Assembly (NCBI GenBank): GCA_025056175.1
Contig: JANWWK010000044.1
Coordinates: 1-33,782 of the forward strand
Source: Anaerolineales bacterium
GTDB lineage: Bacteria > Chloroflexota > Anaerolineae > Anaerolineales > Villigracilaceae
Length of the DNA: 33,782 nt
Direction: 5' to 3'
Shown here: positions 18,800 through 33,465 of the stretch, piece by piece
Layout of the letters: the number at the start of each line of letters is the position of its first letter
Numbering within the stretch: position 1 is the stretch's first letter
Translations under genes and position numbers: made by a program
The notes under the pieces: generated by a model
The model's input: only the letters and a program-made list of their open reading frames with translations
Database searches by the model: none
What the model was told of the DNA's origin: nothing

Positions 18800-18810
18800 A
18801 AATCCTTCTT

Positions 18811-20961
18811 TTACGGTTGAAGCGTATCGAAAAGGCCAGGATTAGCCCGCAGCCAGAACGGCTGCGCAGTTTCGGCCTTCCAGCTTTTCGCAAACTCCGG
18901 GTCATCGAACCGGGCGGGGACGGCGTTCCAATACATCAACGCACGAACCACATCGTTATTGGCGCGCACAAAAGCGAACAGGGGCGCGAACCAGCCCATC
19001 CAATCGGCTTCTGCCGCCGGAACAGCCGCAATGATAACCGGTTTTGAGCGTTCACGGGAGAAATTCAAGACAGATTCAAGCGATTGATTTTCACATGCGG
19101 AAACCTGTTCACGATACGAGACCGCCACCCAATCCACAAATTCATCGCCGGGATACCAGACCTCGGGCGATTGGCCGCCAAACGGCGACTCACACGCCCC
19201 GGCAGTATGCCACACCCAGGCAATCTGCTTCGCGCCGGATGCTTGCGCCCGTTGGTAAACATACCTCCACGCTGAAACATAACGCTCCGGCTCATCGCCA
19301 TTCCCTGCCTGGTCGAACTCCGGCCCCAGCCGCAGGAACACCGGGCGCTGGAGCGCAGCCAGCGCCGCAAGCAAGGAATCAATTTGGGAATCGAATTTTC
19401 CAGCCAAAACGGAATCGGCCTGACCGGAAAACAACAGTCCCACCGAGAGAACGCTGTTCGGGTAACGCTTCGCCAGAGCATTCAGCGCGTCCAGGTCGAG
19501 CGCATCAAGCGCGAGTTCCAGGCTCACCCCGCCCGGCGCGCTGACGACCTTATCGAAATACGCATTCACCGCTTCCGCATCCGGCCCAACCAGGAGCAGG
19601 GCTTTGCCCGTGATGGGCGCGAATTTGCCCTCGATGGCGCGCGGTGGGGGCGGGGCCTCCACGCGCGGCGTAACGCCCGGCTCATAAATGCGGAAGTTGC
19701 CGCTGGCTTGCAGAAGACCAAGCAGGTAGAGCAAGCCATCATAATAGCGATACTTGCCGGTGGGGATGGCGGCATCCCACAAGGCCTGCACAAACGGCTT
19801 ACCGATTTCCGGGTCGGCGGCATGCGCCAGGACAGCATTCGTAGCAATCAGGCCAGTAGCGCGGTGACCGGCAAGGGGTTTACCATCCAGCGAATACTCG
19901 GCCACGTACTGGTCTATGCCCTGCGAGGCAAAGAACGACAACTGGCGATTGGCCTGTTCCCGATACCAGGCCGAAGGATAGAACCAGACATAATCCATGC
20001 CGATATTTGCGCCCACGCGAAAGGCGTCATAGCGGAACTGGCCATGATAGTCGTCATTGTATGGGCGGCCATCGAAATACGAATAATTCGGGGCCAGACC
20101 AGTTTCGGGATGAACCGCTTTGGGCAGGAAATCGCGGCTGGCGGCGGCGGCTTCTTTCCAAAAATCGTTGTTCTTATCGGCCCAGCGCGCCCACAATTCG
20201 TAGTAGTGCGGCATGTGATACGAAGCATCGGTAAATTTAGAATTTTCCCCCAACTGCGGCACAAAGACGACCTGCTTCGTTTCCGGGTCGAACAGGTTGG
20301 TTGCCAGGCTGCCGCCCAATTCTTTGGCGTTCAGGGCGACATCGAGAATCGATTGTGCTTCGGCGCGGTAATTGAAAATTCCCTCGCCGCTGCCCCAGCG
20401 CGCATCGGCAAAGAACAGCGCCATCACAAACCACACTTCGCCATCCGAAGCCGGGTTGGCGGCCAGTTGCGTGCCATCGGTCTTGCAGTGCCAGGCAAAG
20501 TAGCCCTTGTAACCGCCGTCGGTCTGGTACATATAGGTTTTTGCCCATTTCCAGAGACGGTCAAATTCTTCTTTTTTATTTAGCTGAACGGCAATCATCA
20601 TGCCGTAGGACATGCCTTCTGAGCGTACATCGTCATTGCCCGTATCGAGCATATAAGCCATATCACTGCCCACCGGGTAATAAACGCGCTCCGAAACGTC
20701 ATCCCCATAAAAGAGTTGCTGAAAAGCCGCTTCGATTTTGGCTTGCGTTTCGGCTTCGCTCTTGCCGAGATATTTTGCAAACAGGTTGGGGTACTCGCCG
20801 GTCTCATACGCGCCTGCCTGGGGCAGTGGGAGCGGGGTGGGGGTCGGTGGCTGGGTAGGCATAGGGGCGGTTTCCGTCACAGAAGGAGCCGGGCCGGCAC
20901 AAGCGGCCAGCAGGGTCAACAGGAAAAAAAGCGAAAGGAAACGGAGGGGCGTGGTGTGCAT
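18811..20961 (-). CDS. lipoprotein GH8 oligoxylanase fused to a degenerate GH26-like domain
   Basis: This 716-residue surface lipoprotein has a signal peptide with lipobox L-A-A-C (Cys21), then a Pro/Thr linker to about residue 48. Residues about 52-427 are a GH8 domain like reducing-end xylose-releasing exo-oligoxylanase. Glu115 (S-E-G-M-S-Y-G) is the general acid, Asp173 (A-S-D-G-E) the substrate-shaping residue and Asp312 (Y-D-A-F-R-V) the general base. After a Pro-rich linker (about 428-447), residues 448-710 resemble a GH26 barrel: L-R-L-G-P-E-F-D (Glu548), A-W-R-Y-V-Y, I-A-W-V-W-H-T, W-Y-P-G-D-E-F-V-D-W-V. However, the strand expected to carry the nucleophile Glu reads P-V-I-I-A-A-V-P. 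The second domain is therefore likely non-catalytic or altered. It sits between GH43 and GH3 genes. Confidence 0.85.
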   Translation of the reverse strand: MHTTPLRFLSLFFLLTLLAACAGPAPSVTETAPMPTQPPTPTPLPLPQAGAYETGEYPNLFAKYLGKSEAETQAKIEAAFQQLFYGDDVSERVYYPVGSDMAYMLDTGNDDVRSEGMSYGMMIAVQLNKKEEFDRLWKWAKTYMYQTDGGYKGYFAWHCKTDGTQLAANPASDGEVWFVMALFFADARWGSGEGIFNYRAEAQSILDVALNAKELGGSLATNLFDPETKQVVFVPQLGENSKFTDASYHMPHYYELWARWADKNNDFWKEAAAASRDFLPKAVHPETGLAPNYSYFDGRPYNDDYHGQFRYDAFRVGANIGMDYVWFYPSAWYREQANRQLSFFASQGIDQYVAEYSLDGKPLAGHRATGLIATNAVLAHAADPEIGKPFVQALWDAAIPTGKYRYYDGLLYLLGLLQASGNFRIYEPGVTPRVEAPPPPRAIEGKFAPITGKALLLVGPDAEAVNAYFDKVVSAPGGVSLELALDALDLDALNALAKRYPNSVLSVGLLFSGQADSVLAGKFDSQIDSLLAALAALQRPVFLRLGPEFDQAGNGDEPERYVSAWRYVYQRAQASGAKQIAWVWHTAGACESPFGGQSPEVWYPGDEFVDWVAVSYREQVSACENQSLESVLNFSRERSKPVIIAAVPAAEADWMGWFAPLFAFVRANNDVVRALMYWNAVPARFDDPEFAKSWKAETAQPFWLRANPGLFDTLQP

Positions 20962-21034
20962 TCTGAATTGCCTCGTGATTCTTCAATTCTGGCATCCGGG
21001 CTTCGCGTAATCTGCATGCCTGAATGCCCCAAAA

Positions 21035-22594
21035 TTAAATCAATTCGCCATATTCAAACCAGTCGAAATCAGCCCAATTGCTGCCCGGCTGTCCATTGCT
21101 GCTGGCATACATGCCCACATACGCGCCGATGAAACCACCCGCTACTGGCGTACTCAAAATGCGCCCATCAGCATTCTCAAACAGCGCGCGCCAGGTGCCG
21201 GCTTCATCGGCAAAGTAGAAACTGTACTCCTGCCCGCGCGCTTCGATTTTCAGGCGAATTTCGGGAACGGAAATCGGCGTTTGGGCCAGAATCTCATCCA
21301 CGCCTGCGGCGCGCTTCACCAGCCGAAGGAGGGGTTGCTCTTCGCGCGTGACGATGAAACGGTAGTGATAATCGGGGCTTTGATTGAGCGCCAGTCCGGC
21401 GCATTCGTGCGCGGAGGCAGGCGTGAACTCGAACGCGGCTTGCGCGGTGAACGAAAAGTGCTGCTGTCTGCGGCCGATGAAAGCCGGACCGGCGTGTTCG
21501 GAGAGCTGCTCCGGGCGCAGATACAGGCGCAAAAAGCCGGGGCGTTCTTTCAGGCTGCTAAACCGCTCCGGCGAAACACGCAGGGAATTCCACACGAAGG
21601 CGAGCGTCTCAGCATCGAAATCATCGCGCGCCGGAAGGGAAGGCCAGGGATGCGACGGCAGATTGGGCGCCGGGTACTCAAACTCGACCCTGCCCGTGCC
21701 GGGACTGAAAATGGGCCAGCCTTCCTCCCAACGGACGGGGACGAGAAAGGTTTCACGCCCCAGGTTGTAGAAATAGCCGCCATACGGACGCATTGCCAGC
21801 AAAACCGCCCACCACTCGCCTGCGGGCGTCTCCACCAGGTCAGCATGGCCGGTGCCGACAATCGGGTAATCCAGCCCCAGGTGGCGGTGCGTGAGAACCG
21901 GGTTGCCCGGATTCGATTCGTAAGGACCGGTCACACTGCGGCTGCGGGCAATTGTCACCGCATGGTGATGCCCGGTGCCGCCTTCAGCAATCATCAGGTA
22001 ATACCAATCACCAATTTTGTAGAGATGCGGCGCTTCGGCCCAGCGCGCGCCTTTGAGCGCGCCATCCCATAAGACCAGCGGCTTGCCCACCAGCCGCATG
22101 GTTTCTAAATCCAACGCTTGCAGCCAGATTTCGGTATGTCCCTCAAATTGAGGATTGGATACCATGCGGCTGCCAACATACCAGACGCGGCCATCGTCAT
22201 CGAACAGGAGCGAGGGGTCAATCCCCTCGGCTCCTTCCAGCCAGTAAGGCTCAGACCAGGGTCCAGCCGGGTCGGTTGCAGTGACGATGAAATTGCCGGC
22301 TTGCTTTTTGCCACTGACCAGGGTGTTGATGATGTAAAACATTCCGTTGTGATAGCGAATGGTGGGAGCATACAGACCACCGGAGGAGGGAACGCCCTCC
22401 AGCGGCAGTTGCGATTCGCGCGTGAGCGCATGGCCGATTTGCCTCCAGTGAACCAGGTCACGGCTGTGAAAAATGGGCAGGCCGGGGAAGTACTCGAAGG
22501 TCGAAGTGACCAGGTAAAAATCATCCCCTGCGCGACAGAGAGAAGGGTCGGGATAACAACCAGGCAGGATGGGGTTGCGGAAGGTCGCTGGCAT
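21035..22594 (-). CDS. GH43 family beta-xylosidase
   Basis: This 519-residue enzyme lacks a signal peptide and is predicted to act inside the cell. The five-bladed propeller (about 1-310) has the three acidic GH43 residues: Asp16 (Y-P-D-P-S, general base), Asp126 (G-I-D-P-S, pKa modulator) and Glu187 (W-A-E-A-P-H, general acid). A beta-sandwich domain of the GH43 C2 type spans about 320-519 and usually contributes to the active site of beta-1,4-xylosidases. It would release xylose from non-reducing ends of imported xylooligosaccharides; arabinofuranosidase activity is an alternative. It starts 6 bases after the second permease gene, and 73 bases separate its stop from the GH8 fusion gene. Confidence 0.92.
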   Translation of the reverse strand: MPATFRNPILPGCYPDPSLCRAGDDFYLVTSTFEYFPGLPIFHSRDLVHWRQIGHALTRESQLPLEGVPSSGGLYAPTIRYHNGMFYIINTLVSGKKQAGNFIVTATDPAGPWSEPYWLEGAEGIDPSLLFDDDGRVWYVGSRMVSNPQFEGHTEIWLQALDLETMRLVGKPLVLWDGALKGARWAEAPHLYKIGDWYYLMIAEGGTGHHHAVTIARSRSVTGPYESNPGNPVLTHRHLGLDYPIVGTGHADLVETPAGEWWAVLLAMRPYGGYFYNLGRETFLVPVRWEEGWPIFSPGTGRVEFEYPAPNLPSHPWPSLPARDDFDAETLAFVWNSLRVSPERFSSLKERPGFLRLYLRPEQLSEHAGPAFIGRRQQHFSFTAQAAFEFTPASAHECAGLALNQSPDYHYRFIVTREEQPLLRLVKRAAGVDEILAQTPISVPEIRLKIEARGQEYSFYFADEAGTWRALFENADGRILSTPVAGGFIGAYVGMYASSNGQPGSNWADFDWFEYGELI

Positions 22595-22600
22595 GGCAGG

Positions 22601-23467
22601 TTAACCTTTCACGGCGCCAGCCGTCAGACCGGAGACAATTTGGCGCTCGGCGAAGAGATAGAAAATAATGGTCGGCAGAGCCGAGAGCAGAACGAAGGCG
22701 GAAACCAGCGCCAGGTCTTGCCCATACTGCCCCTGGAATTGCATGGTGCCAAGTGGGAGCGGCCAGAGTTTGTCGTTGTTGATGACCACCAGCGGCACGA
22801 GCAGGTCATTCCAGCTCATAATCATCGTCAGCGCGGCCACGGCAGCCAGAGCAGGTTTGGCGAGCGGCAGCAGGATGCGCCAGAAGAAATCGAAGGCGGT
22901 ACAGCCGTCAATGTAAGCTGCGTCCTGTAATTCGGCGGGAATAGCGGCAAAGAATCCGCGCAAAATCAGGATATTGCCCGAAAGCTGGAAAGCGGTTTGC
23001 ACGATGATGACGCCCCACAGGTTATCGAGCAGGTTCAACTGACGCAGGACGAAATAGACCGGCAGGATGGCGATGTTGATGGGAAACATCAGACCAAGCG
23101 TGAAAAGCTGGAAAACCCAGTTCTTGAAGCGAAAATCCATGCGCGAGAAGATGAAAGCCGCCAGACTGCAAATGACCACCACGCCGGTCGTGGTTGCCAC
23201 CATCACCATCACGCTGTTCCACAGCATCGGCCAGAAAGAATAGCGCGGGGTGGTCAGGATGGAAATCAGATTTTCCCAGCGCGGCGGAATGGGCGGCGTA
23301 TAAGGGCTGGACATCAATTCGCCGCGCGTCTTGAGGGCGCCAAAAACCAGGATGACGATGGGGACGAAGACCAGGATGACGACCGTCACCAGCACAGAAT
23401 ACTGGAGAAGGCGTTGAAAGAACTTTCGCGCGTTCCAGGCAGGGCGGTAAGTGGCAGTGGCTTGCAT
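22601..23467 (-). CDS. sugar ABC transporter permease (MalG-type)
   Basis: This 288-residue inner-membrane permease of the CUT1 group has about six helices. The EAA-type loop that contacts the ATPase reads D-A-A-Y-I-D-G-C-T-A-F-D-F-F-W-R-I-L-L-P, and the C-terminus (I-V-S-G-L-T-A-G-A-V-K-G) is typical of MalG-like subunits. It is paired with the MalF-type gene 4 bases upstream and the binding-protein gene before that. No ATPase gene is present nearby, so a shared MsmX-like ATPase encoded elsewhere is expected. Confidence 0.93.
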   Translation of the reverse strand: MQATATYRPAWNARKFFQRLLQYSVLVTVVILVFVPIVILVFGALKTRGELMSSPYTPPIPPRWENLISILTTPRYSFWPMLWNSVMVMVATTTGVVVICSLAAFIFSRMDFRFKNWVFQLFTLGLMFPINIAILPVYFVLRQLNLLDNLWGVIIVQTAFQLSGNILILRGFFAAIPAELQDAAYIDGCTAFDFFWRILLPLAKPALAAVAALTMIMSWNDLLVPLVVINNDKLWPLPLGTMQFQGQYGQDLALVSAFVLLSALPTIIFYLFAERQIVSGLTAGAVKG

Positions 23468-23471
23468 AGGG

Positions 23472-24422
23472 CTATCCTTCCAATCCAGAGAGATAGTCGG
23501 GTTTGCGGGTGAAATGCAGATAAATGAGCGAGAAAATCAGGCACAGCAGAAACATGTAAATGGCAACCGCCGAGCCATAGCCCAGCTGAAAGCGCACAAA
23601 CCCAAAGCGGTACATGTAAGTTGCCATCGTCTCGCTGGCGTTCACCGGGCCGCCTTTGCTCATAATCCAGACCATGATGAACTGCTGGAGCGAACCCAGC
23701 ACAGAAATGTAAACCGAAGTGCGGATGGTGCTGCTCAGGAGCGGCAGGGTGATGTAAAAGAAATTTTGCAGGGCATTGGCGCCATCTACACGCCCGGCTT
23801 CTTCTATTTCACTGGGGATGTTTTGCAAGCCGGTCATGAACAGGAGCATGTGATAGCCAAAATATTTCCAGGTGAGCGCGGCAAAGATGGCAATCAGCAC
23901 CAGGTTGGGGTTGCCCAGCCAGGCCTGGGGCTGCCCGCCCAGCGCCACGATAACAGCATTGACAAAGCCCCGGTCAGGGTCCGGGTTCAGGATGAACAAC
24001 CACATCAACGCAGCAATGACTTCGGAGAGAACGTAAGGCAGAAAAAACACCGTGCGAAAGAACACCCGCCCGGGCAAATCGCGCCCCACCAGCACCGCGA
24101 GCAAAAGAGAGAGCGGCAACTGAACCAACAGCGAAAGGGCAATAATCAAAAGGCCATTCCGCAACGCAATCAGGAACACCCTATCTTTGAGAATGTTCTT
24201 GAAATTATCCAGGCCCACGAAATCCACCGCCGGACCAAAACCTTTCCAGTTAAACAGGCTGTAATACACCGATTGCAGGATGGGGTACACCACAAACAAG
24301 AGAAACAAAACAACCGCCGGAAGCAGGAACAGGAAAATCATCAAATTGTCCTGAAACCGGCGGGGCAGCCCGGCAGAAGGTTTGAGCTTAAGGAGATTTG
24401 AGATTGCGGGAAGCGATTGCAT
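23472..24422 (-). CDS. sugar ABC transporter permease (MalF-type)
   Basis: This 316-residue inner-membrane permease of the CUT1 family has about six helices, preceded by a cytoplasmic N-terminus with P-R-R-F-Q-D-N. The EAA loop reads E-E-A-G-R-V-D-G-A-N-A-L-Q-N-F-F, followed by L-P-L-L. The ATG at 24422 is preferred over an upstream start because GGAG lies seven bases before it and the extra residues look unlike the family. It is separated from the binding-protein gene by an attenuator-like terminator and couples closely to the MalG-type gene (4 bases). Confidence 0.92.
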   Translation of the reverse strand: MQSLPAISNLLKLKPSAGLPRRFQDNLMIFLFLLPAVVLFLLFVVYPILQSVYYSLFNWKGFGPAVDFVGLDNFKNILKDRVFLIALRNGLLIIALSLLVQLPLSLLLAVLVGRDLPGRVFFRTVFFLPYVLSEVIAALMWLFILNPDPDRGFVNAVIVALGGQPQAWLGNPNLVLIAIFAALTWKYFGYHMLLFMTGLQNIPSEIEEAGRVDGANALQNFFYITLPLLSSTIRTSVYISVLGSLQQFIMVWIMSKGGPVNASETMATYMYRFGFVRFQLGYGSAVAIYMFLLCLIFSLIYLHFTRKPDYLSGLEG

Positions 24423-24477
24423 CGCGGCACTCCAGGAGAAGGATAGGAGCGGAGGAAACGAACAACAACATTTTCTC

Positions 24478-24523
24478 AAAAAAGGGCGGGGAAGAAGCCC
24501 TTGCTACAACCTGTTCCCCGCCC
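24478..24523 (-). terminator. intra-operon terminator/attenuator after the binding-protein gene
   Basis: Arms GGGCGGGGAA (24484-24493) and TTCCCCGCCC (24514-24523) form a 10-bp GC-rich stem with a 20-base loop. On the minus strand the stem is followed by six T (24478-24483). Its place between binding protein and permeases would yield more binding-protein mRNA than permease mRNA, a common ABC operon arrangement. Confidence 0.85.
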
Positions 24524-24538
24524 CAGGTGAAAGGCAGA

Positions 24539-25894
24539 TTATTTGATTTCCTGTGCAGCAGAAGCCTCAATGGCCTGCATAGCCTCTTCAGGCGTCATCG
24601 TACCGGCAAACACAGCCTGAATGCTATCGTTGACCACCGAACCAACCGCCGGAGGCAAAGCCTGGTCGTAGTACAACTGGAAATACTGGGCTTTCGAGAG
24701 CGTCTGTTGTAAGGTAATCATCAACGGGTCCGAAAGACCGGCTTCGCCGCCCTTGACCACCGGAATAGCAACGTTGATTTGGGCCAGCTGAACCTGCGAC
24801 TCAGCGCGAGTGAGATACTTCAGGAAATCAATCGCTTCGGGGGGCGCATTTTTGCCGACGGCAAAGCCGTTGCCACCGCCAAAAGCATCGTTCGGGTCAC
24901 CCTTGCCGCCGGGAACCGCCGGGAAGGGGAAGAAGCCGAGCTTATCCCCCAGGCCCTGCTTGTTTTCGCTGTTATCGCGCTGCACGGCAGGCGCCCACTG
25001 GCCCATCAGTTCCATCGCGGCTTTGCCATTGCCCATCAGGGTCGCCTGGTCACCATAGGTTGCGCCCAGATAACCCTCCTGGAACGGCTCGAGGGCTTTG
25101 AGCTCGAGCAGTTTGTTGGCAGCCTCAACGAAGCAGGGGTCGGTAAAGGAGCCGGTGCGCGAAGCGGCCTTGCGGAATCCCTCGGCACCGCAGATGCGGG
25201 TGGCCAGGTAACCAAACCAGAAGTGACCGGGCCACTTATCGCCTTCTCCCAGCGCAATGGGGGTAATGCCAGCGGCCTTGAGCGCCTTGACGGCGTCGAG
25301 CAATTCGGGCCAGGTAGTGGGCGGAGTGGTGATTCCAGCCTGAGCAAAGAGTTCCTTGTTGTACCAGAAGCCCACCATGCCCATATCCCACGGCACGCCA
25401 TAGTTCTTTCCATCTAAGGCATACACACCAAGCGCACCGGGAGAGAACGTGTTGCGCCATGCGCCGCCATCGGCATCCAGGTCAGCAGTGATGTCTTTGA
25501 GCAGACCGGCGCGGGCATATTCGTTCATCACGCCGCCGCCCCAGCTCTGGAAGATGTCGGGCGGGTTACCCGATTGCATCACGGTCGTCAGTTTGGTCTT
25601 GAAGGCTTCGTTTTCGAGGACGGAAATTTCGATAGTCACGTTCGGATGTGCAGCCATGTATTCATCGGCCAGTTTTTGCCAGACGGCCTTGTGGTCTTCA
25701 GCGGTCGAAATATGCCACCAGGTAACCGTGACCTTTTTACCCTGCGAAGGGGACTCTCCGCCCGAAGCGGGCGCCCGCGGTGCAGTGGGCTGCTCCGCAG
25801 GGGCGGAAGGTGCCGCAGTGGGTGAGCCGCACGCGGCTAACGCAAAAGCCGCGATGAGAAGCAGGCTCAATACGGTAGAAATCTTGCGGGACAT
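24539..25894 (-). CDS. sugar ABC transporter substrate-binding lipoprotein
   Basis: This 451-residue extracytoplasmic family 1 binding protein has a signal peptide ending A-L-A-A-C with Cys22, and an Ala/Pro/Ser-rich linker to about residue 52. The mature domain begins V-T-V-T-W-W-H-I-S and contains P-P-D-I-F-Q-S-W-G-G-G and Y-G-V-P-W-D-M-G-M-V-G-F-W-Y-N-K-E-L-F, both typical of CUT1 sugar-binding proteins. Its genomic setting among GH43, GH8 and xylA genes points to xylooligosaccharides or xylose as ligand. AAGGAG lies about eight bases upstream of the ATG. The stop is followed by an attenuator hairpin. Confidence 0.93.
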   Translation of the reverse strand: MSRKISTVLSLLLIAAFALAACGSPTAAPSAPAEQPTAPRAPASGGESPSQGKKVTVTWWHISTAEDHKAVWQKLADEYMAAHPNVTIEISVLENEAFKTKLTTVMQSGNPPDIFQSWGGGVMNEYARAGLLKDITADLDADGGAWRNTFSPGALGVYALDGKNYGVPWDMGMVGFWYNKELFAQAGITTPPTTWPELLDAVKALKAAGITPIALGEGDKWPGHFWFGYLATRICGAEGFRKAASRTGSFTDPCFVEAANKLLELKALEPFQEGYLGATYGDQATLMGNGKAAMELMGQWAPAVQRDNSENKQGLGDKLGFFPFPAVPGGKGDPNDAFGGGNGFAVGKNAPPEAIDFLKYLTRAESQVQLAQINVAIPVVKGGEAGLSDPLMITLQQTLSKAQYFQLYYDQALPPAVGSVVNDSIQAVFAGTMTPEEAMQAIEASAAQEIK

Positions 25895-26002
25895 GTTCTT
25901 CTCCTTGTGAATTTCAGGGAAACGGAAGGGAACGAATGGTCAGGGCAGAGTTTGAGCGTATAATTGACGGGTATTGGGGTCCTCCTTTCGTGGGGATTCC
26001 AT

Positions 26003-26051
26003 ACAAGCAAAACAGGATTGGCGCGGCTGGACGGGCTAGCCAATCCTGTTT
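26003..26051 (-). terminator. terminator at the end of lacI
   Basis: Perfect 13-bp arms, AAACAGGATTGGC (26010-26022) and GCCAATCCTGTTT (26039-26051), overlap the end of lacI (stop at 26036-26038). On the minus strand the stem runs into a T-rich stretch (TTTTGCTTGT). No strong separate promoter was found between it and the binding-protein gene, so leaky read-through may matter. Confidence 0.75.
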
Positions 26052-27079
26052 CGATATGGCGCGGTAGATTGGCGCACAATCAACTCGGTGGGCAATTCAA
26101 TGCGTGAGGTGCGCTTGCCCGGCTCCTGGAGCATATCGAACAACATTTGTGTTGCCACCCGCCCCATCTGCTCCAGCGGCTGCTGGACGGTCGTCAGGGG
26201 GGGCAACAACACTGCCGACTGGGGGATGTTATCGAAGCCGATAATCGAAATATCATCAGGAACGCGCAAACCGCGATGTCGAACGGCATCCATCGCGCCC
26301 ATCGCCATCACATCGTTCGAAGCAAAAATGGCCGAGGGCGGCTCGGGCAGGTCGAGCAGCGCATTGGCGCCCTGCACGCCGGCATGTTGAAAGAAATCTC
26401 CTTCGTAAATCAGTTCGGGGCAAATGGGAAGATGATGAGCGCGCAGAGCGGCTTTGTAGCCTTCCAGACGGTCTTGAGCGCACCCCAAATCCATCGAACC
26501 GGTAATAAAGCCGATGCGGCGATGCCCCAACCCAATCAGATACTCCGTCGCGACAAAGGCTCCCTGCCAGTTGGTGGCACCGACTGCCGGACTGGTGGTA
26601 TCTATGCCCTGATGGTCAATTAACACATGGGGGAACTTACGCGCGCTCAGCACGCCCAGGTAATCCGCCGGGTTGCGCGGCAAAACGAGCAAAAGACCTT
26701 CCACCACGCCCTGCACGAGCGAAGCGACATAATTGGCCTCTTTGGCGGCGCGGCGATGGGTGGTGAAGAGCATCAGGTCGTAGCCGGCCTGGTCCAGTTC
26801 GCCGTCAATGCCGCGCATGATTTCTCCGATGTAGCCATTTCCCAGCTCGGGGACGAGGACCCCGATGACATGCGTTTGTCCGCGCGCCAGGCTTTGCGCC
26901 TGTCGGTTAATGACGTATCCCAAACGTTGAATGGCATCCATCACGCGGGCGCGGGTGGCCGGACGGACGTGCGGGTCGTTGTTGATGACCCGCGAGACTG
27001 TGCCATAAGAAACCCCCGACGCTTCGGCCACATCAAAAATGGTTACCTTGCCGGTCGTTTGCACATCATCGTTGGGCAT
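26036..27079 (-). CDS. LacI-family transcriptional regulator of the xylan-use locus
   Basis: This 347-residue repressor-type regulator has an N-terminal LacI helix-turn-helix (about residues 12-60) with V-T-I-F-D-V-A-E-A-S-G-V-S-Y-G-T-V-S-R-V-I-N and the hinge-forming region near L-A-R-G. A periplasmic-binding-protein-like sugar-sensing domain follows (about 65-340), including A-I-F-A-S-N-D-V-M-A-M-G. The ATG at 27079 is chosen over the one at 27091 because GGAGG lies five bases before it. It heads the sugar-use genes on the same strand. Three matching operators in its own promoter region indicate autoregulation. The inducer is probably a xylan-derived sugar. Confidence 0.92.
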   Translation of the reverse strand: MPNDDVQTTGKVTIFDVAEASGVSYGTVSRVINNDPHVRPATRARVMDAIQRLGYVINRQAQSLARGQTHVIGVLVPELGNGYIGEIMRGIDGELDQAGYDLMLFTTHRRAAKEANYVASLVQGVVEGLLLVLPRNPADYLGVLSARKFPHVLIDHQGIDTTSPAVGATNWQGAFVATEYLIGLGHRRIGFITGSMDLGCAQDRLEGYKAALRAHHLPICPELIYEGDFFQHAGVQGANALLDLPEPPSAIFASNDVMAMGAMDAVRHRGLRVPDDISIIGFDNIPQSAVLLPPLTTVQQPLEQMGRVATQMLFDMLQEPGKRTSRIELPTELIVRQSTAPYRNRIG

Positions 27080-27092
27080 TTCGGCCTCCATC

Positions 27093-27110
27093 TTTGTAAG
27101 CGATTACAAA
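27093..27110. promoter_or_regulatory. LacI-type operator O1
   Basis: TTTGTAAGCGATTACAAA is a near-perfect dyad centred on GCGA. It lies just upstream of the lacI start, within the predicted leader. Confidence 0.85.
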
Positions 27111-27127
27111 ACCTGGCAAAAACAATG

Positions 27128-27145
27128 TTTGTGACCGCTTACAAA
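27128..27145. promoter_or_regulatory. LacI-type operator O2 over the transcription start
   Basis: TTTGTGACCGCTTACAAA is the reverse-orientation copy of the same site with a two-base change. It covers the predicted start (about 27142) of the lacI promoter. Confidence 0.85.
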
Positions 27146-27148
27146 CAC

Positions 27149-27177
27149 ATAATAGCACCAAAAAACACAAAAGTCAA
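27149..27177 (-). promoter_or_regulatory. lacI promoter
   Basis: On the minus strand TTGACT (27172-27177) and TATTAT (27149-27154) are separated by exactly 17 bases. The promoter lies between operators O2 and O3. Confidence 0.82.
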
Positions 27178-27183
27178 GCACTT

Positions 27184-27201
27184 TTTGTAAGCGTTTACAA
27201 A
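27184..27201. promoter_or_regulatory. LacI-type operator O3 upstream of the -35 box
   Basis: TTTGTAAGCGTTTACAAA, extended by one more matching T/A on each side, lies just upstream of the -35 hexamer. Its centre is 56 bp from O2; O2 to O1 is 35 bp. Confidence 0.85.
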
Positions 27202-27245
27202 ACATCCTGAAACGCCCCCTTTGTGGGCGCAGGGAATAACCAACA

Positions 27246-27266
27246 GCGCGAAAAGCCTTCTCGCGC
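27246..27266 (-). terminator. possible weak terminator of the TPR gene
   Basis: GCGCGA and TCGCGC form a 6-bp GC-rich stem with a 9-base loop, 23 bases past the TPR stop. The T tail is poor (TGTTGGTTATT on the minus strand), so termination is uncertain. Confidence 0.35.
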
Positions 27267-27289
27267 CGGATAGAAAACACAGGTGCGTT

Positions 27290-28678
27290 TCACGGGGAAA
27301 AATAACGCGTCAGAATCTCTTGCGCCTGGCGGCCATAAGGACCAGCAGGGTCCAGACGGGTCACCTGCTCAAATTCCGTTCTGGCTTCCACAACCCGGCC
27401 GGTTTGCAAATACAACAACGCCAGATGAAAGCGCGGTGCAGGCAGGGCGGGGTCCAGGTCAAGCGCACGCTGATATAAGACACGCGCGGTTTCCGCTTCT
27501 CCGGTCAAGGCCAGCATGCGCCCCAACAGGTCTAACACGGCGGGGTTTTGCGGCGCAAGGGCATAGGCGCGCAAGGCGGCTTCCAGGCCGACCTCTTCCA
27601 GAAAGGCTTCATGCTCCAGGCAAAAAGCGGCCAGCGACATCCACACAGAAACATCTTGCGGCGCAATGCGCGTGGCGGCCTGGTAATGTTCGAGTGCGGC
27701 GGGCAAATCGCGCCGGGCAATGATGCGCGCCAGCGCCAGCCGCCAGGCCGGATTTTCCGGTTCCAATTGAGCCGCACGCAGATATTGAGATTCGGCTTGA
27801 GCGTAGTTCCCCTGCCGCTCGTAATACAACCCCGCCATTGCCTGAACCCCAGCAGACTGGGGATTCAACGCCAGGGCACGGTCATATAACGCTTCGATAA
27901 CGACAGGGTCGTCGGCTGCCATCTGGTAAAGGGCTTCGGCCTGCCAGGCCCAGGCTTCAGCATAGTTCGGGTTGAATTCGGCAGCCGCGCGAAAAGCGCG
28001 CAAAGCCAGCGGCCATTCGTCAGCGTTCGCCAGCGCACGGCCAACCAGCAGGGCGCGATAAGCAGGGTCTTCTTGCATCAGCGCCTGTTGCAGGGCGTTT
28101 CGGACGGTTTCTGCCGAAGGGTCGGTAAGCATGGAGAGGTGAGTCAAGGCCGTTTGCAGGTCTTCGGGCGCCAGTAACAGCGCCAGGCGGTAACGGGCCG
28201 AGGCACGCGCAGGGTCAAGTTCCAGCAGACGGGTGAGGGCGCGCACTTCCAGGGCGGCATCTTGCCGCTGCGCAGCGTATTCGGCCAGGCGGGCAAACAA
28301 TGCCGGGGATGCGAACCCGGTTTGCCATAATGGAAGCCAGGCCTGTGCGTAGGCGGCGTCCCAATCCCCCTGGCGGGCATAAATTTCTCCAAGCGCAAGC
28401 CACCCCGAAGGCGTCAGCGTCTCCGCCCGACGGGCTTCCAGCAAAAGCGCCAGAGCGCGTTTGTCTTCGCCGGCTTGCAGGGCAGATAACGCGGCCTGTT
28501 CGCGCAGGCCAGCCTCCCAAAACAGCAGATGCGCGGCTATTTCGTAGTGCCGGGAAGCACGCGCAGGAGCAGTCTGGCGCAGCGCTTCGGCCTGGAATCG
28601 GTTAAAATAGGCCAGGCCGACCGGCGGGAGGCCAATCAACAAGAGCAGGCTCAGCAGAATTGCGGCGTTTCGTTTCAC
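27290..28678 (-). CDS. tetratricopeptide-repeat protein
   Basis: This 462-residue protein uses a GTG start. It has a short N-terminal hydrophobic segment (about 5-24) that may be a membrane anchor or signal sequence. The rest is a chain of helical TPR units; several are clear, for example Y-A-E-A-W-A-W-Q-A-E-A-L-Y-Q, A-G-L-Y-Y-E-R-Q-G-N-Y-A-Q-A-E-S-Q-Y-L-R-A-A and A-R-V-L-Y-Q-R-A-L-D-L-D-P. The protein is probably a scaffold for protein-protein contacts at the outer face of the membrane. The partner is unknown. It is divergent from the histidine kinase operon, sharing a 65-base promoter region. No Shine-Dalgarno sequence precedes the GTG. Confidence 0.87.
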   Translation of the reverse strand: MKRNAAILLSLLLLIGLPPVGLAYFNRFQAEALRQTAPARASRHYEIAAHLLFWEAGLREQAALSALQAGEDKRALALLLEARRAETLTPSGWLALGEIYARQGDWDAAYAQAWLPLWQTGFASPALFARLAEYAAQRQDAALEVRALTRLLELDPARASARYRLALLLAPEDLQTALTHLSMLTDPSAETVRNALQQALMQEDPAYRALLVGRALANADEWPLALRAFRAAAEFNPNYAEAWAWQAEALYQMAADDPVVIEALYDRALALNPQSAGVQAMAGLYYERQGNYAQAESQYLRAAQLEPENPAWRLALARIIARRDLPAALEHYQAATRIAPQDVSVWMSLAAFCLEHEAFLEEVGLEAALRAYALAPQNPAVLDLLGRMLALTGEAETARVLYQRALDLDPALPAPRFHLALLYLQTGRVVEARTEFEQVTRLDPAGPYGRQAQEILTRYFSP

Positions 28679-28688
28679 GGTGGGTGTT

Positions 28689-28694
28689 ATTATA
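28689..28694 (-). promoter_or_regulatory. -10 box of the TPR gene
   Basis: On the minus strand this reads TATAAT, ending ten bases before the GTG at 28678. The predicted leader is only about 4 bases. Confidence 0.5.
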
Positions 28695-28723
28695 CGTCCA
28701 TCCCTTAAGTTTCTCGTGAGCCG

Positions 28724-28732
28724 TGCTATAAT
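28724..28732 (+). promoter_or_regulatory. extended -10 promoter of the kinase operon
   Basis: TGCTATAAT is a perfect extended -10. It ends eleven bases before the ATG at 28744, predicting a leader of about 5 bases. No good -35 is seen, as is usual with extended -10 promoters. Confidence 0.6.
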
Positions 28733-28743
28733 CTTAAGAAGCC

Positions 28744-31143
28744 ATGGAACTCATCAATCAACTCCTTACTTTTCTTGCCAATCCCCCGGGGAACTTCATC
28801 TACAACCTGGTCGTTCCGGCCATTCTGGCCGGGGCGCTACAAGGCGCAATCGGTCAATGGCGTGCGACGGGGTATCCGCAGTCGCAGCGCATGGTGTTGG
28901 GGTTGGGGTTGGCGCTGGCCGGGCAGGCGGTGTTGCTCCTGCTCGGCATTTTAATGTATCAGAACATTTTGCCGGGGCTGTCGGTTTTGCCGGTGTTAGA
29001 CCGGGCGGTCATCGTCTTCAGCATGGCATGGATTTTATGGGTATGGGCTTTCCCGGAGCCTTCGCGCCCGGCCGATGTAGTGATTGTGATTGCCAGCCTG
29101 GTTTTGCTGGGGGCGGCTGTGGTAGGCATCTTAGAGCGTTCGATGTCGCCGGTTGCACCGAATTCGTTCAATGCGTCATTGCAGGCGCTCCTGTGGAGCA
29201 TCGGTGGCCTGGTGGTGATGCTGCTGGGTGCGCTGGCGCTGCTCTTGCGCAGACCCCAAGGCTGGGCAACCGGCCTGGCCGTGGCGACGCTGGGGATACT
29301 CGGTTTTACGCTCGATTTATTTCTGACCCCCGCCCAGGGCGATTTTTCGGGCGTGATGCGCTTCTTGATGCTGGCCGGTTATCCGCTTTTGCTCACCCTG
29401 CCAATGCGCTTCCCCATGCCGGTCAACTTTCCCAAGACCCGCACCGTAGCGGCTTACCAGGAAAAGGTGAGCGAAGCGCGCAAACGCGAGGTCGAGACCG
29501 GCGAAACGCCCAGCCAACCCATCCGCGAACGACGCCGTTACAGCACTGACCCCAAAACCCTGCAATCTCTGCTTCTGCTGGCGGCAGAAACCGACCCGAA
29601 AAACATTAACCAGTATATCGCCCGCTCGGTGGCACAATCCATGCTATCAGATTTATGCTTTTTGCTGTATGTAGGCGAGGACAAGAGTTCAATTTACATC
29701 GCATCCGGATATGACCTGATACGCGAAGAAAGCCTGGAAGGCGGCCTGCTGAAAAAAGACGAAGTGCCGATGCTGGCCAACGCCATTTTGCGCGGGCGCG
29801 CTCTGCGGCTCCCGGCCAGCACAACTTCTTCGGATTTGAAAGGGCTGGGCGATATGCTGGGGCTTTCCAATGCCGGCAACCTGCTCAACGTGCCGATTAC
29901 GTCCGAAAAGGGCATCGTCGGCAGTTTTCTGTTGCTTTCACCTTACTCTAACCGCGTCTGGAGTGCAGACGACCAGACCTTCCTGGCAAATATCGCTTCC
30001 TCGTTCGTTTCCATCATCGAGCGCGGCAAACGGATTGACGAAATTCGCCTGGAACGGGAACGCGCCCGCCACGCCGCCGAAGAAGCACAGGCGCAGATGG
30101 CGCGCTTGCAGGCTGCCAATGCCGATTTGAACAACCAGATTGAAACGATGAAAAGCCAGGCCGAGCAAGCCGTGCGCTTGACGGTGGAACGCAATGAGAT
30201 GACCTCTAAACTGGCCGAACTGCAAGCAGAGAACGAGAAATTGCGCGCGCAGCTTGAGTCTCTCTCTGGCGGCACAACGCCGGTTGCCACCAACGAACAG
30301 CTGGAAAACGAACTACGCATGACCCTGCGCGAGATGGCGCGCCTGCAAAACGCTCTGGCCGAATCGAACATGCGCATTCTGGAACTGGAGAACAAAACCT
30401 CTCCCAGCGCCAGCCTGACCACCGAACAGGCCGAAGTGATTGCTTCCATCTCGCAGGAATTGCGCCAGCCCATGTCGTCCATCATCGGGTATGCCGACCT
30501 GTTGCTGGGCGAATCGGTCGGTATTTTAGGGGCACTTCAACGCAAGTTCATTGAACGCATCCGCGCTTCGACCGAGCGGATTGGCAGCCTGATTGACGAC
30601 CTGATTCAGATTAGCACGCTCGAAACGGGGTTGATGTCGCTCAAGCCAGAGCCGGTGGATTTAAACCTCATCATTGACAACGCCATGGCCTACACTTCCA
30701 GCCAGCTGCGCGAGAAAAACATCACCCTGCGGATTGACATTCCCGAAAATATGCCACCGCTTCATACCGACCGTGAGGCGTTGCAGCAAATTCTCATCCA
30801 TCTGCTGCAAAATGCCGGAGCGGCGTCGGCGGTCGAAGGTACGGTGACCCTGCGGGTGCGCACGCAGCGCAAAAACGGCAACGAGTATGCCCTGATTCAG
30901 GTCACTGATACCGGCGGGGGCATCCCCAAAGAAGACTTGCCGCGCGTGTTCTCCCGTCTCTACCGCGCCGATAACGTCCTGATTCAAGGTGTGGGCGATA
31001 CCGGCGTCGGCCTTTCCATTGCTAAAGCCCTGACCGAAGCGCAGGGGGGACAGATTTGGGTGGACACGGAAATGGGCGCAGGGTCTACCTTTAACGTCTT
31101 GTTGCCGTTCAAACAACCGGCAGATGACCACAAGGCAGGGTAA
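28744..31143 (+). CDS. membrane GAF histidine-kinase-like protein with Gln in place of the phospho-His
   Basis: This 799-residue protein has about seven membrane helices in residues 18-222, a GAF-like sensor domain at about 270-425, a long coiled coil at about 428-555, and a kinase core. The dimerisation helix reads S-I-S-Q-E-L-R-Q-P-M-S-S-I-I-G-Y, where the canonical motif is S-H-E-L-R-x-P, so the phospho-accepting His is Gln571. The ATPase domain looks intact: N-box with Asn690, G1 box D-T-G-G-G-I-P (722-728), F-box region and G2 box G-V-G-L-S-I-A-K (754-761). It may bind ATP without autophosphorylating on His, or may act as a scaffold. No response regulator gene is adjacent. The LysM gene begins 2 bases after its stop. 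Confidence 0.88.
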   Translation: MELINQLLTFLANPPGNFIYNLVVPAILAGALQGAIGQWRATGYPQSQRMVLGLGLALAGQAVLLLLGILMYQNILPGLSVLPVLDRAVIVFSMAWILWVWAFPEPSRPADVVIVIASLVLLGAAVVGILERSMSPVAPNSFNASLQALLWSIGGLVVMLLGALALLLRRPQGWATGLAVATLGILGFTLDLFLTPAQGDFSGVMRFLMLAGYPLLLTLPMRFPMPVNFPKTRTVAAYQEKVSEARKREVETGETPSQPIRERRRYSTDPKTLQSLLLLAAETDPKNINQYIARSVAQSMLSDLCFLLYVGEDKSSIYIASGYDLIREESLEGGLLKKDEVPMLANAILRGRALRLPASTTSSDLKGLGDMLGLSNAGNLLNVPITSEKGIVGSFLLLSPYSNRVWSADDQTFLANIASSFVSIIERGKRIDEIRLERERARHAAEEAQAQMARLQAANADLNNQIETMKSQAEQAVRLTVERNEMTSKLAELQAENEKLRAQLESLSGGTTPVATNEQLENELRMTLREMARLQNALAESNMRILELENKTSPSASLTTEQAEVIASISQELRQPMSSIIGYADLLLGESVGILGALQRKFIERIRASTERIGSLIDDLIQISTLETGLMSLKPEPVDLNLIIDNAMAYTSSQLREKNITLRIDIPENMPPLHTDREALQQILIHLLQNAGAASAVEGTVTLRVRTQRKNGNEYALIQVTDTGGGIPKEDLPRVFSRLYRADNVLIQGVGDTGVGLSIAKALTEAQGGQIWVDTEMGAGSTFNVLLPFKQPADDHKAG

Positions 31144-31145
31144 GC

Positions 31146-31961
31146 ATGGACTGGCTGCGACAGGCAGGCTCTGGGCTGTTGTTTGGGCTGGTGTGTGTTG
31201 CAATTGTCATCGGCGGATTTGCCCTTTCGATGGTGGAAGGAGGCATGGGGATGAGTCCGGCAGCAAGCGCCACCCTGCCTGTTTCGACCCCCGCCACGCG
31301 CATTGTTGCCCTTTCGCCGACCCTGCCGCCAGCGAGTTTCACCCAGGCGGCCAACCTGAGTACCGATACCCCGCTCCCCACGCCCACGCTCACATTTACC
31401 CCCCCGCCGCCGCCCACCAACTGTCCGCCGCCGCTCGGCTGGGTGGCCGTGGTGGTGCAACTCTACGACACCCTGCCCGGCCTGGCACAAACCTACAACA
31501 TCAGCATTGAAGCCCTGCGCCAGGCCAACTGCCTGGTGAGTGACCAGCTGGTGCCGGGTTCGTTCCTCTACGTCCCGCCCCTGCCCACCGCCACATCCAT
31601 CCCATGCGGCGCGCCGAGGGGATGGGTGAGTTATGTCGTTCAGCCGGGCGATACGCTCTTCTCGCTCAGCCAGCTATTCCGCGTGAGCGTGGCAGACCTG
31701 CAGCGCGCCAATTGTTTGGGGAATTCAACCTTCATTCAGGCCGGGAAGGTGCTGAAAGTGCCAAATGTGCCGACCAGCACCCCACGTTACTCGGCCACAC
31801 CCTCGGCAACGTTCATCGTGATTCGAGAGGAGACCGGCACTCCCACCGCAACCGCTACGCCGCTCGCTCCAACCACCGAACCCCCCTCACAGACTCCGGC
31901 GCTGCCCACCAGCACGCCATCGCCCTCCAACACACCACCGCCCCCAACGGCAACTCCCTGA
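31146..31961 (+). CDS. membrane-anchored double-LysM protein
   Basis: This 271-residue protein has one N-terminal membrane segment (about 9-30), a Ser/Thr/Pro-rich spacer (about 35-95) and two LysM domains at about 99-144 and 160-206. The second has the classical V-Q-P-G-D-T-L-F-S-L-S start, the first a diverged V-V-V-Q-L-Y-D-T-L. A second Pro/Thr-rich tail ends the protein. LysM domains bind N-acetylglucosamine-containing glycans such as peptidoglycan, so this is probably a cell-wall-binding anchor. No enzyme domain is present. It starts 2 bases after the kinase stop, so the two are translationally coupled. Confidence 0.9.
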   Translation: MDWLRQAGSGLLFGLVCVAIVIGGFALSMVEGGMGMSPAASATLPVSTPATRIVALSPTLPPASFTQAANLSTDTPLPTPTLTFTPPPPPTNCPPPLGWVAVVVQLYDTLPGLAQTYNISIEALRQANCLVSDQLVPGSFLYVPPLPTATSIPCGAPRGWVSYVVQPGDTLFSLSQLFRVSVADLQRANCLGNSTFIQAGKVLKVPNVPTSTPRYSATPSATFIVIREETGTPTATATPLAPTTEPPSQTPALPTSTPSPSNTPPPPTATP

Positions 31962-32004
31962 AGGCCAGAACAAAGCGCCCGGCCCGTTGCCGTTTCATTT
32001 TCGT

Positions 32005-33465
32005 ATGAAAAAGCCGCTCGTTCGCACGGTCTGGCATGCGCTTGTGGCCATTTTTTTGCTGACCTCCTGCGGGGAAATTCAGACCGCGCCGTCGCCTGTC
32101 CTGCCTTATTATTTCGTCACCGCACCAGCCAACGCTACCCCCACACCCACGCCGTTTCAACCCTTTATCCCGGCCATCGGCGGGCAGCCGCTGGCTGCCT
32201 TACCCCCTACGCTTCCGCTCCAGCTCTCTGCAACCCTGCCGCCCCAGGTGGTGACGGCCACGCCCCTGCCAACAGCCATCCCTGCCACTCCACCGGCACC
32301 TCTGCTCAACACGCCGCCGACCCTGCTGGATGCACCGGATGTGATTACATTTCTCCTGCTCGGCTCCGATTTGCGTCCGGGGTCTTCGTATCGCACCGAT
32401 ACGCTGGTGATTGCCATCGTGCGCCCCCACGAGGGACAGGTTTCCCTCGTATCCATTCCGCGCGATTTGTGGGTGAATATCCCTACCGTGGGCATGAACC
32501 GCATCAACACGGCTTATCAGAGCGGTGAACTGACACGCTATCCGGGCGGCGGTCCCGGTTTGCTCCGCGATACCCTGCGCGAAAATTTAGGCTTGACGAT
32601 TGACCATACCGCTATGGTAGATTTCGACGGCTTTCGCCGCATCGTAGATACCCTGGGCGGAATTGATGTGCCAGTGGCCTGTTCTTACACCGACTGGCGT
32701 TTGATAGACCCCTCGCTTGACCCTTATGATGAAAACAATTGGACGCTCTTCACCACCGGGCAGGGATTGATTCACATGGACGGCGACTACGCCCTTTGGT
32801 ATGCCCGCTCGCGCTCCAAATCGAACGATTTTGACCGTGGACGCCGTCAGCAAGAAGTGTTGCGCGCGCTGTATGGGCAGGCCTTGCGCGCCGATGTATT
32901 CTCGCGCCTGCCGCAGCTATATGCCGATTTCCGCACCACCATCCGAACAGATGTGGGCTTAGACGATGTGCTGCAACTGGCACCGCTGGCACTCCACTTG
33001 AGCAATGCTGATATTCGCAGCTACTACATCGCCGGAGAGTTGGTCACGCCCTGGACAACACCCGGGGGAGCCTATGTCCTGCTGCCAAACACGGCGCTCA
33101 TCCAGGAGATGCTGCGGCAGGCCATCTCGCCTTCTCCCCGACAGCAGCAACGACAAACCTGGCAAGTCGAAATCCGCAACGGCACCCCGTACGACAATTG
33201 GGAGATGCTGGCCGCCGAACGGCTGAACTATGCCGGATACGAAACCACATTTCGCGCTTCGGACCACCGTAATTACGCCCAAACCCTGCTCTACGACCTG
33301 ACTCCCGACCAGGACAGAACGCGCTCGGCCAGTCTGCTGGCGGTGCTGGGACTGTCCGAATCGGCCCTGGTGGCCGTGCCTTCTCCGGGCGCACAAACGG
33401 CTTACGTGGTGATTCTGGGGATGGATTACGACCCTTGCTTTCGCCCGCAAGAACTGGCTCCTTAA
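32005..33465 (+). CDS. LytR-CpsA-Psr (LCP) family lipoprotein
   Basis: This 486-residue protein has a signal peptide with lipobox L-L-T-S-C (Cys22) and a long Pro/Thr-rich linker to about residue 105. The LCP catalytic domain spans about 112-285, with L-L-G-S-D-L-R, Y-R-T-D-T-L, S-I-P-R-D-L (Asp154), N-R-I-N-T-A, G-G-I-D-V and R-S-R-S-K-S-N-D-F-D-R-G-R-R-Q-Q (268-283). A LytR_C domain lies at about 388-480. LCP proteins transfer polyprenyl-linked glycopolymers to the cell wall. A lipoprotein anchor replaces the usual N-terminal helix. The ATG at 32005 is used; a TTG 18 bases upstream would only lengthen the n-region. It follows the LysM gene by 43 bases. Confidence 0.92.
   Translation: MKKPLVRTVWHALVAIFLLTSCGEIQTAPSPVLPYYFVTAPANATPTPTPFQPFIPAIGGQPLAALPPTLPLQLSATLPPQVVTATPLPTAIPATPPAPLLNTPPTLLDAPDVITFLLLGSDLRPGSSYRTDTLVIAIVRPHEGQVSLVSIPRDLWVNIPTVGMNRINTAYQSGELTRYPGGGPGLLRDTLRENLGLTIDHTAMVDFDGFRRIVDTLGGIDVPVACSYTDWRLIDPSLDPYDENNWTLFTTGQGLIHMDGDYALWYARSRSKSNDFDRGRRQQEVLRALYGQALRADVFSRLPQLYADFRTTIRTDVGLDDVLQLAPLALHLSNADIRSYYIAGELVTPWTTPGGAYVLLPNTALIQEMLRQAISPSPRQQQRQTWQVEIRNGTPYDNWEMLAAERLNYAGYETTFRASDHRNYAQTLLYDLTPDQDRTRSASLLAVLGLSESALVAVPSPGAQTAYVVILGMDYDPCFRPQELAP

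Follow-up and report, generated by a model that had tools for sequence, protein, structure and literature searches.

The locus and its product

The window, that is, the whole stretch of 33,782 nt analysed from contig JANWWK010000044.1 of an Anaerolineales bacterium, carries a gene for a membrane protein with a histidine kinase module, together with genes for a LysM protein and for a LytR-CpsA-Psr (LCP) enzyme (Table 1).

Table 1. Features of the kinase-like gene, its product, and the two downstream genes.
Feature	Positions	Strand	Basis
Pseudo-histidine kinase gene, 799 aa, ATG start, frame intact	28744..31143	+	ORF; Pfam HisKA and HATPase_c
Membrane domain at the N-terminus, residues 1-223, with seven long helices and a short one	28744..29412	+	AlphaFold2 model, block pLDDT 79-97 to residue 220
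GAF-like domain, residues 270-425	29551..30018	+	Helices and strands in AlphaFold2 model
Long coiled-coil-like linker, residues 408-550	29965..30393	+	AlphaFold2 model helices 408-504 and 518-550; low confidence in part of 490-560
DHp domain (HisKA), residues 560-627, helices 560-590 and 597-627	30421..30624	+	Pfam, AlphaFold2 model, alignments
Codon of Gln571, phospho-His position	30454..30456	+	Alignments
CA (HATPase_c) domain, residues 640-790	30661..31113	+	Pfam, AlphaFold2 model
N box H686-LLQN690-AGAA694 (other kinases mostly NLxxNAxKY/F)	30799..30825	+	Alignment
G1 box D722-T-G-G-G-I	30907..30924	+	D722 in 182/182 and G726 in 182/182 modules
G2 box G751-D752-T-G-V-G-L, acidic residue replacing Gly	30994..31014	+	D/E at 752
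LysM protein gene; single hydrophobic helix at the N-terminus, a stretch rich in Pro and Thr, two LysM stretches	31146..31961	+	Pfam, hydropathy
LCP (LytR-CpsA-Psr) glycopolymer transferase gene	31987..33465	+	Pfam PF03816 2.2e-34; NCBIfam TIGR00350

In the kinase-like protein, Pfam matched HisKA (residues 562-629; 4e-15) and HATPase_c (residues 676-790; 2.7e-23) above cut-off, and both were matched by all 37 class members scanned; the Pfam GAF models each matched 14-15 of these 37 members, the window protein itself being unmatched. The AlphaFold2 model of the whole protein reached a mean pLDDT of 81 and a pTM of 0.40, so that single domains are credible and their mutual arrangement is not. 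Simple hydropathy marked six segments in the N-terminal membrane domain, where homologue alignment revealed conserved blocks near PPGN, LPxLDR, and RFP, and the DHp domain bears the family signature GYxDLLLGESVGILGALQR. Among the best 50 Foldseek matches of the model, a WalK-YycH model came first, and HK853, RetS, and DivL were also present. Among solved structures, HK853 (of Thermotoga maritima, a name also found in some entry titles) was moreover the best match to the family profile (E 3e-44).

A perfect TATAAT lies within 28727-28744, its end 11 nt 5' of the kinase-like ATG, and the transcript of this gene may therefore be almost leaderless; the motif is absent from the promoter-scan list. 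Upstream, a divergent TPR gene (27290-28678, minus strand) encodes a product with one N-terminal hydrophobic helix, and many loci of the window's family (L053, L054, L055, L063, and others) have such a divergent TPR gene next to the kinase-like one. Positions 16682-27091 hold a cluster, perhaps serving the use of hemicellulose, in which glycoside hydrolases GH3, GH8, and GH43 are accompanied by a LacI-type regulator and an ABC transporter of sugar type.

The LysM gene begins 2 nt past the stop codon of the kinase-like gene, and the LCP gene then follows. In 56 loci including the window, the next downstream ORF, chosen as the longest reading frame with a start close to the stop codon (by which a shorter gene can be skipped), was matched by Pfam to LysM in 45, to LCP in four, and to a response regulator in one, the gap from the kinase-like gene having a median of 5 nt. 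A LysM-like motif was detected by pattern in 42 of these 56 ORFs, and each of the 42 products has exactly one hydrophobic helix, near its N-terminus. Outside the window's family, 69 further loci were added from among the class-wide module matches listed, of which 65 had at least 700 nt of downstream sequence; a home-made LysM profile built from eight seeds scored a LysM gene downstream on the same strand in 51 of the 65. Other wall genes lie directly upstream in some loci, namely a TPR-SLT lytic transglycosylase gene in L151 and L155 and MurJ in L148. The LysM linkage and these adjoining wall genes point to an association with the cell wall, which outlasts large changes in the sensor part among the class loci. 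The link by gene order to cell-wall proteins that a preliminary description had proposed from the window alone is thus found class-wide, with a LysM gene and often with an LCP gene.

The same description had reported that no response regulator adjoins the gene. Indeed, a Pfam scan of nine window genes (21035-33465) found none, and the sole locus among the 56 with a response regulator as next ORF belongs to a Ser-bearing member (L149), in which a kinase gene comes after it.

Phospho site and nucleotide site

The H-box of the window protein reads S568-I-S-Q571-E-L-R-Q575-P. The place of the phospho-accepting His of a canonical HisKA domain is therefore taken by Gln571, exactly as read and numbered in the preliminary description (S-Q-E-L-R-Q-P). 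Gln occupies this position in all 54 rows of an alignment of distinct proteins, formed by the window protein and 53 close homologues. Class-wide, 182 distinct modules were compared ("family" meaning at least 260 bits; identical rows and fragments of <190 residues left out; the window's family over-represented), and position 571 was Gln in 155, Asn in 13, His in eight, Ser in four, Asp in one, and Glu in one. In other words, 174 of the 182 modules have a residue other than His, against none of 30 other kinases from the window's genome and the fetched loci, all 30 of which have His. The preliminary description had regarded His in orthologues as the sign of a point change in this genome; this is contradicted by the 53 close homologues, none of which has a phospho-His, although eight of the class-wide modules do have one.

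The alignment of the 53 close homologues also contains no conserved alternative His within the DHp domain, in line with the earlier proposal that phosphotransfer is not used. The candidate H686 was considered as a substitute and rejected: it is conserved in 53 of the 54 close rows, but it lies inside the N box, and class-wide only 101 of 182 modules have His there. The residue that follows the phospho site is Glu in 169 modules, Asp in 12, and Arg in one, and R574 is invariant. A second, divergent copy in genome G071 (L290) has Gln at the phospho position followed by Arg instead of an acidic residue (SQRLRTP). Position 575, which we take to be linked to phosphatase activity, is Gln in the window protein and Thr in 22 of the 30 other kinases (Asn in three, Gln in two, Ser in two). 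Replacement of His by Gln is a laboratory substitution that serves to prevent autophosphorylation (PMC11784639), and for this reason the absence of phosphotransfer through residue 571 in the Gln members is strongly supported.

With regard to the nucleotide site, the preliminary description had called the N, G1, and G2 boxes functional, which stands for N690, D722, and the G1 glycines, all present in the window protein, but not for four other canonical residues, since N686 is replaced by His, K693 and Y/F694 by Ala, and the first Gly of G2 by D752. Among the 182 modules, N690 is kept in 181, and the G1 glycines vary little or not at all. Position 752 is Asp or Glu in each of the 181 family rows with a residue there, against Gly in 27 of 29 other kinases. 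Position 686 is His in 101 modules, Asn in 29, Gln in 27, Arg in 16, Glu in six, and Ser in two (one row not listed), whereas 28 of the 30 other kinases have Asn; position 693 is mainly Ala (66), Leu (64), Lys (19), or Gln (14), against Lys in 22 of 30; and position 694 is Ala (102), Cys (44), Val (24), or Ser (10), with Tyr or Phe in none of those listed, against Tyr or Phe in 28 of 30. By established knowledge of the fold, we take N690, D722, and G726 to bind Mg and adenine, and positions 686, 693, 694, and 752 to lie near the phosphates, as in solved kinases. Judged by sequence, the core of the site is kept and its phosphate end altered, a pattern that fits nucleotide binding without the old chemistry, and the acidic residue in G2 could weaken this binding. 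In this context, DivL, a known pseudo-histidine kinase, shows only weak binding of an ATP analogue (PMC4211667), and changes in the G1 and G2 motifs of phytochrome A are reported to have had little effect (PMC5712524).

An early-branching clade with Gln (e.g., L146, L151, L152, L155, and L163) pairs N686 and K693 with Gln571, E752, and the lack of Tyr694, and the latter changes thus seem earlier than those at 686 and 693. The position four before N690 is that of the general-base Glu of GHKL ATPases. From the N-box pattern, a GHKL ATPase or a Ser kinase of PDK type, which has Glu at this position, was attractive in the window's lineage, but it was rejected because the residue is His in the window and varies across the class, with Glu in six of 182 modules. 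As position 686 is variable, no new catalytic base is indicated, and the suggestion that the switch is ATP-driven, made in the preliminary description, is not supported.

It is unlikely that the protein is still a kinase or an ATPase, which would use a different residue, or Ser/Thr in a partner, as phosphate acceptor, or would hydrolyze ATP. The conserved core ATP residues and the acidic residue kept after the phospho site would suit such an activity, as would H686, or Glu in the six modules, at the base position of GHKL ATPases. Plant phytochromes, which are without the His, have been described as Ser/Thr kinases (PMC4525182; PMC5712524). All this is offset by the variation at 686 (H/N/Q/R/E/S across the family), by the scarcity of Lys693 (19/182), by the lack of Tyr or Phe among the residues listed at 694, and by the close homologues, which have no conserved alternative His outside the N box.

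Distribution, history, and conservation of the family

Matches at E<=1e-100 were obtained in 42 of 61 related genomes (own genome counted), most of them of full length and a few partial or in two pieces, and in 33 of the 37 genomes of the window's own taxonomic family (own included). A collection of bacterial and archaeal contigs yielded 34 loci, labelled Anaerolineae, Anaerolineales, Anaerolinea, Chloroflexi/Chloroflexota, or Desulfolinea. Furthermore, of 396 Anaerolineae genomes sampled, 159 matched a profile of the DHp-CA module at E<=1e-75, the other 237 falling below that level. In a phylum-wide sample of 400 genomes every match of at least 290 bits lay within this class; the next match scored 247 bits, and outside the class the top score was 233.

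On a tree from which column 571 had been omitted (117 rows, 111 of them of the family), the states at this position need at least 12 changes with the outgroup and at least 11 within the family, and the distinction of His from other residues needs at least six, five of them forced by well-supported branches; since the trees come from quick searches and contain many weak forks, all change counts are tied to those trees. Gln is present from the deepest family branches upward. One sub-lineage (sampled families f23, f59, and f61) is labile, with Asn, Ser, Asp, His, and one Gln; His also occurs in f20, Ser in L149 of the window's order, and Glu in one member of f33. The eight His-bearing modules are scattered in the tree, so that His was either lost once and then regained several times or lost repeatedly. 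Under either history the pseudo-kinase family as a whole is independent of His, and the eight modules suggest that phosphorylation may persist or return in some lineages.

Within the 41-row clade that holds most sampled rows of the window's order, site 571 shows at least eight codon changes and one amino-acid change, and a family tree made before, with codons for 67 rows, has at least 13 switches between CAA and CAG against four amino-acid changes. Codon switches so far outnumber amino-acid changes that selection must be keeping Gln in the window's lineage.

Canonical kinases from largely the same genomes keep the His in both groups compared (18/18 and 20/20; 38/38 together). Mean pairwise identity of the module was 0.720 in the Gln family vs 0.711 in the first control and 0.752 vs 0.732 in the second (18 matched genomes each), although these controls are the strongest non-family matches of the phylum sample and may therefore be unusually conserved. 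The CA part is slightly more conserved in the Gln family (0.705 vs 0.679; 0.739 vs 0.700), and the DHp helices alpha-1 and alpha-2 are slightly less so (0.837 vs 0.865 and 0.730 vs 0.783 for the first control; 0.871 vs 0.899 and 0.746 vs 0.775 for the second). The DHp loop is clearly more conserved than in the controls (0.842 vs 0.590; 0.907 vs 0.748). Special conservation of the DHp docking face was looked for and not found, only the loop exceeding the controls. This loop, GESVGILGALQR (residues 589-600; 30508-30543), is nearly invariant and is possibly a partner site.

Since the canonical kinases keep the His and show overall no higher conservation of their modules, the Gln family is not decaying. 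An artefact or a decaying gene, in the form of a sequencing error, a point mutation, or a dying reading frame, can accordingly be given hardly any credence: the Gln is present in all 54 close rows from many genomes, the frames are open, conservation equals that of canonical kinases, and the Gln codon has undergone synonymous changes.

Known systems and the proposed role

HK853-type HisKA kinases (PDB 2c2a, 4jas) share the DHp-CA fold and the order of the boxes with the protein described here and are among its top fold matches; in the latter, however, Gln replaces the phospho-His, His replaces Asn at 686, residues 693 and 694 are both Ala instead of Lys and Tyr, Asp stands at the first Gly of G2, and none of the neighbours scanned is a response regulator. 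With its fold conserved and its phospho-His absent, the 799-residue protein fits the descriptive class of pseudo-histidine kinases. DivL of Caulobacter (PMC4211667; PDB 4q20) likewise has a HisKA-type module whose lack of the phospho-His is conserved in its lineage, but with Tyr550 instead of Gln, PAS domains, the cell-cycle partner DivK, and a host from another phylum. DivL is recognized by Tyr or Ala at the site and by multiple PAS domains, in place of which Gln571, membrane and GAF-like domains, and no Pfam PAS match were found here.

This bears on whether signalling could run in reverse as in DivL, with the DHp domain binding a (phosphorylated) response regulator and reporting its state to the envelope. 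DivL is among both the sequence and the fold matches, and it is described as lacking the His, not autophosphorylating, and binding DivK~P (PMC4211667). Nevertheless, the architecture and the site residue differ from those of DivL, and just one of 56 loci has a response regulator as next ORF, which makes this arrangement quite improbable.

RetS-GacS is an example of control by kinase-kinase contact. The module fold is highly similar to that of RetS and of the RetS-GacS complex (PDB 6dk7, 7n0e). RetS is described as a 7TMR-DISM kinase of Pseudomonas (PMC6107284), while no 7TMR-DISM domain was found by Pfam in the window protein or among the 25 listed of 35 families matched by 37 members. RocA of Streptococcus (PMC7028121) also joins a membrane sensor of several helices to a kinase-like part for which a phospho-His is dispensable, but it keeps its His (H246) with a CA domain without several kinase residues, whereas in the protein described here the CA core is retained and the His is gone. 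By the features compared, the latter is therefore neither a DivL nor a RocA nor a 7TMR-DISM protein.

Such cases raise the explanation that the protein regulates a canonical histidine kinase whose gene lies elsewhere, which it would tune through heterodimers or DHp docking, as RocA acts on CovS and RetS on GacS. The fold matches include DivL and RetS, with TMt up to 0.85 for the RetS-GacS complex entry (7n0e), and both heterodimers of a ChrS pseudokinase with HrrS (PMC9491836) and an interaction of RocA with CovS (PMC7028121) have been described. Of the five His-bearing members with a visible upstream gene, two are adjoined by a same-strand GAF-PAS kinase, and three have no kinase directly upstream by the module profile. 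The partner kinase is hypothetical, and few of the drawn loci have a neighbouring kinase gene, so that we regard this explanation as unlikely. The two adjoined members (L153, 5805-8204, minus strand; L182, 8718-11099, minus strand) are each preceded by their GAF-PAS histidine kinase, and these kinases are tree sisters. Pairing with a neighbouring kinase was rejected as a rule for His-bearing members, given the two of five; the other His-bearing loci were too short.

Two further systems concern the membrane and the wall. RgsP-RgsM of Sinorhizobium (PMC6107284) is a seven-helix receptor that works with a membrane-anchored cell-wall protein, which shows that a pairing like the one proposed here is feasible, although RgsP has PAS, GGDEF, and EAL domains and not a kinase-like module. 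WalK with WalH/WalI (PMC7299342) is a membrane kinase for cell-wall homeostasis, and a WalK-YycH model was the top Foldseek match, but WalK is a working kinase paired with WalR, unlike the protein described here.

Taken together, we favor, as somewhat more likely than not, a membrane pseudo-histidine kinase that acts as a nucleotide-dependent switch for the envelope through conformation and contacts, and not through a phospho-His. The observation of the preliminary description is confirmed, and its interpretation, an ATP-driven or ATP-sensing membrane switch without phosphotransfer, is partly supported. The seven-helix membrane domain and the GAF-like domain would feed via the long coiled coil into the DHp-CA module, which, as the usual phospho-His is absent, could not take up or pass on phosphate at that site. 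Judged by its sequence, the module probably retains nucleotide binding, and the arrangement of DHp and CA, acting as the switch, would be set when nucleotide or a GAF ligand binds or is released. The signal may pass through the coiled coil and the seven helices to a LysM partner, or in the reverse direction. The switch would act through contacts between proteins, its most likely partner being the LysM protein anchored in the membrane, and the pair of kinase-like and LysM proteins would then couple a signal from the cytoplasm (or the membrane) to the condition of the wall. Gene order is no proof of such a complex, given that LysM is missing as next ORF in 11 of 56 loci and was not found downstream in 14 of the 65 further loci. 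The acidic residue after position 571 and the invariant R574 resemble active kinases and count against this switch, although both can be structural.

In brief, a protein that many bacteria of a single class have retained, its gene mostly adjoining one for a wall-binding protein, probably controls the envelope by means other than phosphotransfer. More tentatively, much of the class Anaerolineae may have turned a former histidine kinase into a phosphotransfer-free, nucleotide-gated inside-out receptor, in which the cytoplasmic GAF and CA domains would read metabolism and the seven helices would relay this reading through the membrane to a LysM protein dedicated to it (and to the LCP enzyme), the phospho site having drifted among Gln, Asn, Ser, Asp, Glu, and His because it no longer carried phosphate.

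Among the titles and abstracts listed in searches of a collection of open-access papers, none concerned this family, and the pseudo-histidine kinases found there are single cases, whereas here the module is spread over a class. Routine annotation, with HisKA matched in all 37 members, counts such proteins as working kinases. The family offers a natural series of phospho-site states with which to ask what a histidine kinase fold does without phosphotransfer, and it ties this question to the control of the cell wall in a little-studied phylum.
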